Shown: positions 5,936 to 8,132 of the stretch, one piece after another
How the letters are laid out: the number at the start of each line of letters is the position of its first letter
How positions within the stretch are numbered: position 1 is the first letter of the stretch
NCBI RefSeq assembly: GCF_003751265.1
Contig: NZ_RJKN01000002.1
Span: 248,001 to 312,000 of the forward strand
Length of the DNA: 64,000 nt
Source of the DNA: Pseudokineococcus lusitanus
GTDB lineage: Bacteria; Actinomycetota; Actinomycetes; Actinomycetales; Quadrisphaeraceae
Direction: 5' to 3'
Notes under the pieces: model-generated
What the model was told of the DNA's origin: nothing
Seen by the model: only the letters and a program-made list of their open reading frames with translations
The model's database searches: none
Position numbers and translations under genes: made by a program

Positions 5936-6006
5936 CGGGCGCGGACGTCCCGTCCTGCGCCCCCGCGCTCCCGGGGCACGCGGGGGTGGGTCACCCTGGA
6001 GGCACC

Positions 6007-6699
6007 ATGCGCAGCGCACAGAGCACCCGGACCGCCACCCGCCACGCCGCCCGCGCCCGGGCCGCCGCCCGTGTCGGCGCCGTCCCGGCGCGGCGGGCGG
6101 CGGCCGCCGTCGGCGCGCTCGGCCTGTCGGCGGGGCTCCTGCTCGTCGGCGCGCCGGGCGCGGCCGCCCACGACCGGCTCGTCTCCTCCACCCCCGCGGC
6201 GGACGAGACGCTCGACGCCGTCCCCGCCGAGGTCGTGCTGACCTTCTCGGCGGAGGTGCAGGAGCTCGGGACGGTGGCCGAGCTGCACGAGGGCGGCGAC
6301 GCCGTCGTCGCGGCGGACGCCTCGCGGGTCGACGGCCGCGACGTCGTCCTCGACCTCCCCGACGACCTCCCGGCCGGCGCGTACGACGTCGTCTACCGCG
6401 TGACGTCGTCCGACGGGCACCCCATCAGCGGCGAGATCCCCTTCACCCTCGACGTCGCCGCGGCGCCCACGACGGCCGCGCCGACGCCGTCCGCGAGCCC
6501 GGCGCCGTCGCCCACCAGCGCGGCGCCGACGACGTCCGAGCCCGACGTCGCGCCGAGCCCGACCGCCGACGCGACGGAGCCCGCGGCCGGCACCGACGGC
6601 GGCGTCCCGTGGGCGCCCGTCGTCGCGGTCCTCGTCGTCGTGGCGCTGGGCGCGGCGGCGGCCGTGGTCCTCGGCCGGAGGCGCCGCCCCACCCGCTGA
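6007..6699 (+). CDS. copC: CopC-domain copper-binding protein
   Basis: Exported protein of 230 residues. A long Arg-rich signal peptide ends at about residue 54 (GAPGAAA), so the mature protein would begin with His55 of HDRLVSSTP, the N-terminal His that binds Cu(II) in CopC. The CopC beta-sandwich covers about 55-155 and includes VVLTFSAEVQ and the conserved SSDGHPISGEIPFTL near its end. A Pro/Thr/Ser-rich spacer (160-205) leads to one C-terminal membrane anchor (about 203-224) and a short basic tail. No CopD domain is fused. GGAGG precedes ATG 6007. It probably buffers or delivers copper at the outer face of the membrane. Confidence 0.9.
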   Translation: MRSAQSTRTATRHAARARAAARVGAVPARRAAAAVGALGLSAGLLLVGAPGAAAHDRLVSSTPAADETLDAVPAEVVLTFSAEVQELGTVAELHEGGDAVVAADASRVDGRDVVLDLPDDLPAGAYDVVYRVTSSDGHPISGEIPFTLDVAAAPTTAAPTPSASPAPSPTSAAPTTSEPDVAPSPTADATEPAAGTDGGVPWAPVVAVLVVVALGAAAAVVLGRRRRPTR

Positions 6700-6712
6700 C
6701 CCGCACCACCAC

Positions 6713-6852
6713 GAGCAGGCGCCTGTTCGCGCTCCGAGGGCCTTCCCCGGTGACGAACAGGCGCCTGTTCGTGCGCGGACGGCGTCTCACGGCACGAACG
6801 GGCGCCTGCTCGCGCTCCGGAGGCCTGCCCGACGACGAAGAGGCGCCTGCTC
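6713..6852. repeat. Palindrome array A: four GGCGCC-centred units, 41-42 bp apart
   Basis: Four 16-base units begin at 6713 (GAGCAGGCGCCTGTTC), 6755 (GAACAGGCGCCTGTTC), 6796 (GAACGGGCGCCTGCTC) and 6837 (GAAGAGGCGCCTGCTC), with spacings of 42, 41 and 41. The second extends to a perfect 20-bp palindrome, ACGAACAGGCGCCTGTTCGT (6753-6772). Spacer sequences are only partly conserved; units 1 and 3 share CGCGCTCCG after the core. The array lies between the convergent copC and nrdB genes, before their shared hairpin. Function unknown. Confidence 0.85.
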
Positions 6853-6880
6853 GCGACGTCCGCGGGTGGGACCACGCACG

Positions 6881-6916
6881 ACGACGCCCCCCACCCGAGC
6901 GGGTGGGGGGCGTCGT
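6881..6916. terminator. Bidirectional terminator hairpin between copC and nrdB
   Basis: Perfect 16-bp stem (6881-6896 with 6901-6916) with loop GAGC, lying between two convergent genes and 26 bases from the nrdB stop. It can serve both strands. Confidence 0.75.
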
Positions 6917-6941
6917 CGTCAGCGAGGCCGTGCCGGGACGG

Positions 6942-8132
6942 TCAGTCCCAGGTGAGGCCGCCGCCGGTCTGGTACTCGATGACCCGGGTCTCGAAGAAGT
7001 TCTTCTCCTTGCCGAGGTCCATCACCTCGCTCATCCACGGGAAGGGGTTCTCCGCGGGCGGGTACACCGGCGCCAGGCCGAGCTGGCCGCAGCGACGGTT
7101 GGTGATGAAGTGCATGTACTCCTCGCACAGCTCGGCGTTGAGGCCGAGCAGGCCGCGGGGCATCGTGGAGCGCCCGTAGGCCACCTCGAGCTCGCACGCC
7201 TGGCGGAGCATGCCGCGGACCTCCTCCTGGAAGTCCTCGCTCCACAGGTGCGGGTTCTCCGCCTTGATCTGGTTGATCGTGTCGATGCCGAAGTTCAGGT
7301 GGATCGACTCGTCGCGGAGGATGTACTGGTACTGCTCGGCGATGCCGACCATCTTGTTGCGGCGGCCCAGCGACAGGATCTGCGCGAAGCCCGTGTAGAA
7401 CCACATGCCCTCGAAGATCACGTAGAAGGCGATGAGGTCGCGCAGGAACTGCGTGTCCGTCTCCGGCGTGCCGGTGCGGAACTCCGGGTCCTCGAGCGCC
7501 TGGGTGTACTGCAGCGCCCAGGCGTCCTTCTCCGTGATGGACGGCACCTCGCGGTACATGTTGAAGAGCTCGCCCTCGTCCAGGCCGAGGCTCTCGCAGA
7601 TGTACTGGAAGGTGTGCGTGTGCACGGCCTCCTCGAAGGCCTGGCGCAGCAGGTACTGGCGGCACTCGGGGTTGGTGAGGTGCCGGTACACCGCGAGCAC
7701 GATGTTGTTGGCGACGAGCGACTCGGCCGTGGCGAAGAAGCCGAGGTTGCGCTTGAGCATGAGGCGCTCGTCGTCGGTGAGGCCGCCCGGGGAGTTCCAC
7801 AGGGCGATGTCCGCCTGCATGGAGACCTCGGTCGGCATCCAGTGGTTGCCGCAGCCGGAGAGGTACTTGTCCCACGCCCACGTGTACTTCATGGGCAGGA
7901 GCTGGTTGACGTCGGCGCGGCCGTTGATCATCCGCTTCTCGCTGACGTCGACCCGGCCGGCCCCGGCCTCGACGCTGCCGAGGCCGGTGGCCGTGCCCGC
8001 CGAGTCGAGCTCGGCGGCGTGGGGGTCCACGCCGGTCCCCGCGTCGGGGGCCGTCTCGGAGAAGGGGCGGCGTGCGCCGGGGACACCGGCGGTGGGCTGG
8101 GGGGCGGGAGCGTCGTCCCAGTCGAGAGTCAC
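6942..8132 (-). CDS. nrdB: Class Ic ribonucleotide reductase small subunit (Phe at the radical-Tyr site)
   Basis: Small (R2) subunit that supplies the radical initiator to NrdA for making deoxyribonucleotides; 396 residues. Metal-ligand motifs: Glu137 in [10 protein letters not shown], Glu168 and His171 in [10 protein letters not shown], Glu in [10 protein letters not shown], and Glu/His in RDESIHLNF. Four residues after His171, where class Ia enzymes have the radical Tyr, is Phe175. The motif matches the Chlamydia trachomatis class Ic protein, which uses a Mn(IV)/Fe(III) centre. First-ligand Glu instead of Asp also fits class Ic. Start GTG 8132 overlaps the nrdA stop as GTGA; an in-frame ATG at 8147 is an alternative. 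Confidence 0.93.

Follow-up and report, generated by a model that had tools for sequence, protein, structure and literature searches.

Palindromes of differing sequence share a 41-42-bp step in tandem arrays near gene ends of Pseudokineococcus lusitanus and its relatives

Tandem arrays of short palindromes, repeated every 41 or 42 bp and lying mostly near gene ends, recur in the genome of Pseudokineococcus lusitanus and in related genomes, and their pitch is better kept than their sequence. The array examined first lies in the window, the whole stretch of 64 kb that was analysed. We favour the explanation that the arrays are DNA-level sites, about four helical turns apart, for a putative protein, with a probability of roughly 40%. 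Two other accounts, repeats without a host function and hairpins acting in RNA, are weighed along with the evidence.

Results

The array between copC and nrdB

Four near-copies of CGAACAGGCGCCTGTTCG, here called family A, were found between copC and nrdB with steps of 42, 41 and 41 bp. Genes were called with a simple codon-usage finder, whose stops are safer than its starts. The features are:

6007 to 6699, plus strand: copC (Pfam CopC, PF04234), start from a crude gene finder
6712 to 6729, no strand: family-A unit 1, CGAGCAGGCGCCTGTTCG, 18-mer match
6730 to 6835, plus strand by spacer-end polarity: region spanning the three spacers (24, 23 and 23 bp)
6754 to 6771, no strand: family-A unit 2, CGAACAGGCGCCTGTTCG, perfect palindrome, 18-mer match
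6795 to 6812, no strand: family-A unit 3, CGAACGGGCGCCTGCTCG, 18-mer match
6836 to 6853, no strand: family-A unit 4, CGAAGAGGCGCCTGCTCG, 18-mer match
6878 to 6919, no strand: hairpin on the nrdB side, two perfect 20-base arms with 2 bases between, from the sequence
6942 to 8132, minus strand: nrdB, ribonucleotide reductase small chain (PF00268), start called by a simple gene finder

Between the copC stop and the array lie 12 bp, and 88 bp separate the array from the nrdB stop. Regular palindromes had been placed here by the preliminary description and were recovered: allowing up to 3 mismatches, the 18-mer was matched 4 times in the 64-kb window, always in the array, while 100 dinucleotide-preserving shuffles gave a mean of 0.08 matches and at most 1. 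Tandem Repeats Finder (minimum score 45) reported no period-41 row elsewhere in the window. Spacers 1 and 3 show plus polarity (ends CGCTC ... GA(C)GA), and spacer 2 is a tie. The array had no match in phage and plasmid collections, which counts against repeats without a host function.

The preliminary description had also noted a strong separate hairpin behind the array and had judged the array too long and regular to be a single terminator. The hairpin is present, and G001 and G002, two congeners, carry one at the corresponding place after nrdB. A U-tract intrinsic terminator was rejected, as 0 terminator-like sites were found in 6500-7100 of the window, a result that also argues against hairpins acting in RNA. 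The segment 6700-6935, nrdB hairpin included, folds with a z of -8.1, in favour of an RNA role, but an ordinary hairpin of the neighbouring gene already stands beside the arrays in the window and at L154, L160 and L163. An Rfam family was rejected for 6000-7600, where the two matches were both to microRNA models and far below the gathering score.

Family A in the own genome

The genome of the window (3.84 Mb, 19 contigs) contains GARCAGGCGCCTGYTC at up to 1 mismatch in 54 places, compared to 1 for the reversed control. Family A occupies 19 loci, namely 18 when diverged copies are included and one on contig 6 detected with a covariance model. Among the 53 steps in the 18 loci, 47 measured 41 bp, 3 measured 42 bp and 3 measured 40 bp; the contig-6 locus adds three steps, each of 41 bp. 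The preliminary description had suggested a genome-wide search for intergenic clusters with a kept spacing, and had named cores scattered without preferred spacing or location as the outcome against it. This outcome was not seen; what was found is a recurrent intergenic array family with a preferred step of 41 bp. This step modifies the further claim that at about 42 bp, or four turns, all cores face alike: it is right for 42 bp, while 41 bp amounts to 3.9 turns at 10.5 bp per turn.

In the 18 loci, overlap with a called gene never exceeded 60 bp. The median distance to the nearest gene 3' end was 15 bp, and 16 of the 18 loci had one no more than 40 bp away. Where both neighbours were called (17 gaps), 7 gaps were convergent, 10 co-directional and none divergent, compared to 25 divergent among 83 further gaps of 10 bp or more; the 19th locus lies in a convergent gap. 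Both the closeness to 3' ends and the lack of divergent gaps favour an RNA-level role. The first is REP and terminator behaviour as well, and we counted it against DNA-level sites. The adjacent genes share no common theme (tRNA-synthetase-like, GroEL, citrate synthase, FliN, ZnuA and others among 20 genes scanned with Pfam, two of them without a match), as expected for repeats without a host function.

Cores, spacers and folding

Cores had been described as better kept than spacers, and 71 family-A units bear this out. Pairwise mismatch of the core was 0.15 between arrays and 0.11 within an array; for the 12-bp flanks the values were 0.59 and 0.39, respectively. Spacers are more alike within than between arrays, hence units duplicate in tandem. 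This duplication supports an origin as functionless repeats, although the conservation of cores beside randomised spacers does not.

Spacer-end direction (CGCTC ... GACGA) was uniform within the 16 callable family-A arrays, except for one spacer in L031. Relative to the gene, it ran along in 6 and opposed in 3 of nine co-directional arrays, with L031, which borders a contig end, included among the co-directional ones. The preliminary description had offered a protein-binding array, a chromosome-organising site or a mobile palindrome family as readings. A chromosome-orienting role gained no support from the comparison of array polarity with local GC skew (p = 0.72; 30-60 kb per array) and was dropped; the two signs agreed at 20-kb windows in 12 of 16 arrays.

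No excess of arm covariation or pairing over shuffles was found within units, across spacers or between outermost arms. Arms and spacer ends taken together paired in 70.2%, less often than with shuffled partners (73.9%), which argues against hairpins acting in RNA. Kept cores, unkept spacers and absent arm covariation were counted for the DNA-level reading. For folding in RNA speak a slightly better folding of family-A units compared to shuffled-spacer versions (mean z -0.35, s.e.m. 0.13) and a lean of oriented mismatches toward G-U over A-C (28:16 within units, 23:14 across), but most of the lean is due to L025 and L030, two arrays whose units are duplicated. At arm position 4 (GAGCAGG), G was present in 17 of 34 outermost arms, the first left and last right ones of an array, and in 18 of 106 inner arms (Fisher p 4e-4, the copies being non-independent).

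The step is subject to indels, since adjacent spacers were of unequal length in 9 of 36 own pairs and 10 of 32 congener pairs. For this reason an argument for a selected step from the ratio of indels to substitutions was dropped.

Congeners and shared positions

In three congeners the family-A pattern was matched 0, 1 and 0 times. Their arrays are built from a 24-bp asymmetric unit, GGGCGAACAGGCGACGACTCGCCC, conserved at 93% or more in 22 of 24 positions; a model search gave 82 units in 24 of 28 fetched loci. The left half of the unit equals the own-genome half-site CGAACAGGCG. Its 56 steps were 42 bp (42 times), 41 bp (9), 40 bp (4) and 43 bp (1). With up to 2 mismatches in 8 genomes searched, a 22-bp form was matched 55 times in G001, 18 in G002, 40 in G003 and not at all in the own genome and four other family genomes. 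Such lineage-specific families are in line with repeats that serve no host function. The step of 41 bp in the own species and 42 bp in others was counted against DNA-level sites.

All units of a congener cluster have one orientation. Measured against the gene 3' end closest to the cluster, this orientation was evenly split (11 versus 10; n=21), and the 26 clusters comprised 12 co-directional, 8 convergent and 4 divergent cases, with 2 left unassigned. Random direction and divergent clusters are not predicted by a strand-read RNA signal at transcript ends. Congener arrays fold somewhat better than mononucleotide shuffles, with mean z of -2.2 and -1.8 per strand (24 arrays), a point for the RNA account that was counted against the DNA-level one.

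A second palindrome with a 41-bp step is present in loci of G002 and G003 (GAAGCAGACGCCTCCTTC and GCGAAGGTGACGCCCCCTTCAC). In G003, two different repeat families adjoin in one array (L161:2938-3082) with steps of 41, 39 and 42 bp.

When 47 loci of the relatives were compared with the 19 own loci, same-place arrays of the congener type were found at two own loci: L018 corresponds to L144 in G001, and L023 to L149 in G001 and L160 in G003. At orthologous places the number of units varies. At copC-nrdB, G002 keeps both neighbours and the hairpin but lacks an array; G001 has a different sequence after the nrdB hairpin, and the G003 stretch stops at a contig end. Array sites are partly common to the species and partly gained or lost. 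Both the varying unit number and the array-free gap are what repeats without a host function would show.

Several palindromes with one pitch

Other palindromes of the own genome share the step. The second one, CGACTTCGGCAGCGAAGTCG, occurs either way round its GCAG centre, with 2 to 8 units at 41 bp in seven places within 421 kb, mostly intergenic and near stops where neighbours were called. Three further sequences form arrays of near-palindromic units:

CGACTTCGGCAGCGAAGTCG arrays: L206:8543-8684, L206:9763-9905, L204:9759-9901 and L205:7347-7407
CGACTTCGGCAGCGAAGTCG arrays, further: L211:11988-12252, L214:146-451 and L215:19790-19891
GCACATCGGCGCCCATCTGC units, 41 bp with occasional 40 bp, directly behind a TGA stop: L202:13100-13370
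GCACATCGGCGACGAACTGC units, 41 bp: L199:3586-3831
GCAGTTCGTCGCCGAAGTGC units, 41 bp: L212:7447-7690

In L023 the sole family-A copy comes after four copies of CGACTTCGGCAGCGAAGTCG and stays in register, with centres at 2872.5, 2913.5, 2954.5 and 2995.5 and then 3036.5. Elsewhere the step where families meet was 37 bp (L204) or 39 bp (L161), and this imperfect register was counted against DNA-level sites.

The step was also searched for without a given sequence, by scanning for near-palindromic 20-mers repeated at lags of 22 to 79. With family A masked, lag 41 gave 31 clusters, compared to a mean of 0.55 and a maximum of 3 at the other lags that are no multiple of 3. A stretch of 597 kb unselected for family A gave 19 hits at lag 41, compared to a mean of 0.55 and a maximum of 2 at such lags; the 11 lag-41 clusters of the 597-kb scan were counted irrespective of coding or noncoding position. 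Lags divisible by 3 carry a coding background (mean 8.7, maximum 15), and lag 42 gave 11. The second palindrome, the three further families and the lag-41 excess support the DNA-level reading, and several palindromes with one pitch in one genome speak against functionless repeats. Some own-genome families have letters in common and may therefore be related by descent.

Quadrisphaera and wider searches

Quadrisphaera (NCBI family Kineosporiaceae) carries a third array sequence. Palindromes resembling CCGCAACCGGGCGCCCGGTTGCGG were matched 24 to 187 times in six genomes and 1 to 8 times in seven others, and among the matches listed (G007 and part of G008) all 18 of 18 neighbouring pairs had a step of 42 bp. 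These elements are near-perfect long hairpins adjoining stops, as an RNA-level role would have it.

The half-site pair was found in 16 of 396 genomes of the order, repeatedly only in the genus of the window; the 12 genomes outside the genus, with one match each, were taken as chance. A three-copy pattern run GTDB-wide returned 27 stretches, of which by eye only L057 (Quadrisphaera sp. INWT6) shows the architecture. This pattern catches 10 of the 18 own loci and was run against records other than the close ones of the own genome, so sparse arrays elsewhere would escape it. Most other stretches were ordinary tandem repeats or scattered cores; L055 and L064 are among those with steps of 41 or 42 bp but near-identical spacers. 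A more permissive pattern, which in most genomes hardly exceeded its control, was left out of the results.

In viral contigs, paired cores gave one phage hairpin lacking an array, judged chance, and the congener unit gave none. The hairpin, in an IMG/VR phage contig (L078:1021-1082), is long, single and similar to one unit pair. Two repeats of another build were also seen. In G011, behind nrdB, a 182-base direct repeat (L076:1813-2183; 97% identical, step 189) has inverted GACGATCACGC/GCGCATGATCGTC ends, and G010 has a similar palindrome (L120). In G006, a 22-bp tandem repeat, CGAACAGGCGGCTGCTCGGGCA (L119:967-1028), has letters of the half-site CGAACAGGCG and not the pitch.

Discussion

DNA-level sites as the preferred explanation

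The unit is a short inverted repeat, with arms of 7-10 bp round a 4-base centre in families A, B, E and that of Quadrisphaera, and units follow one another head to tail at intervals close to four helical turns (41-42 bp). A candidate dimeric DNA-binding protein could occupy such sites side by side on nearly one helix face. It might be a nucleoid or topology factor that marks or insulates gene ends, and site sequence and protein may drift together at a preserved spacing. Gyrase and IHF act on the BIMEs of Escherichia coli. As in phased arrays, a step constant near whole helical turns is combined with variable spacer sequence. We favour DNA-level sites because the step outlasts sequence replacement, congener direction is random and some arrays lie in divergent gaps. 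Tandem duplication of one ancestral 41-42-bp unit, which could keep the step in the absence of selection, stands against this explanation.

A more specific proposal is a 41-42-bp ruler: a dedicated DNA-binding or DNA-copying machine would build arrays of equal pitch from different inverted repeats, with the site sequence replaced genome-wide between species while pitch and gene-end location stay. We regard it as doubtful.

Alternative explanations

Rather unlikely, in our judgement, is that the arrays have no host function at all. Inverted repeats would then spread and expand by tandem duplication together with some copying process; the step would go back to the ancestral unit or be dictated by the copying, and placement at 3' ends would reflect the least harmful insertion. 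Flank similarity within arrays, turnover of sites and lineage specificity agree with such a process, but the kept cores and the shared pitch do not, and the Y1 transposase (Y1_Tnp, PF01797) was found in 0 of 13 family genomes.

A function at the RNA level appears about equally unlikely. The array would be transcribed from copC, and serial hairpins would either terminate transcription with no U-tract needed or protect the 3' end of the mRNA; between convergent genes they would do so in either direction. Hairpin clusters lacking a U-trail were reported as terminators in 2021, and in the part of that source at hand (PMC8355165) these are, as here, hairpin runs near stop codons. The same part does not describe a repeat family of constant pitch, and our congener arrays also lie in divergent gaps. 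Position and folding agree with RNA hairpins, but pairing statistics and unit direction do not. Finally, a CRISPR array was rejected, since spacers within one array resemble each other instead of being unrelated; cas genes were absent from the Pfam matches of the 20 neighbour genes.

Relation to known repeats

The arrays fit best near the REP/BIME repeats, as a head-to-tail variant lacking a RAYT. Like these, they consist of short palindromes outside genes that occur many times (19 loci and 54 pattern places), are lineage-specific, regularly spaced and near gene 3' ends. Closeness to 3' ends and rarity in divergent gaps hold in the own genome and are weaker in congeners (4 of 26 divergent). 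However, BIME units alternate in orientation, according to the part of PMC2817692 at hand, while the present units run head to tail in one direction, and one step of 41-42 bp serves several different palindromes. Mobilisation by a RAYT, or a GTAG-type REP, was rejected, as the Y1 domain was found in 5 of 14 control genomes but in none of the 13 family genomes.

In stem and loop size the units come close to CGTC-tagged REPs, which have a stem of 8-9 bp, a loop of 4-5 bases and a terminal CGTC-type tag (Di Nocera et al., 2013; PMC3733652, here and below as far as the part at hand goes). These likewise have no known dedicated transposase, and several families may share a genome; convergent REPs lie mostly less than 20 bp from both ORFs. 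They are mainly head-to-head dimers with negligible head-to-tail pairs, whereas our arrays are head to tail, a difference judged on unit order and not on the tag. The words Streptomyces, Kineococcus and actinobacteria are absent from the text of PMC3733652. Evenly spaced tandem units are also known from the REP arrays of Pseudomonas fluorescens SBW25, where, in the available part of PMC3116915, GI and GIII REPs stand 72 and 112 bp apart in few places; our arrays differ from these in using one step across many arrays of differing sequence. The accessible part of the open-licence PMC literature gave no description of such arrays in this bacterial group.

Biological meaning

REP systems are usually defined by their sequence, together with the transposase where one is known. 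Here the step is the constant element, while the array sequence varies from one congeneric species to another and even among arrays within a genome. Selection on the step would imply an architectural or topological factor at gene ends in these high-GC Actinomycetes. A step of mechanical origin would instead point to an undescribed way of making tandem arrays. The species-specific replacement of the sequence makes both ideas testable.
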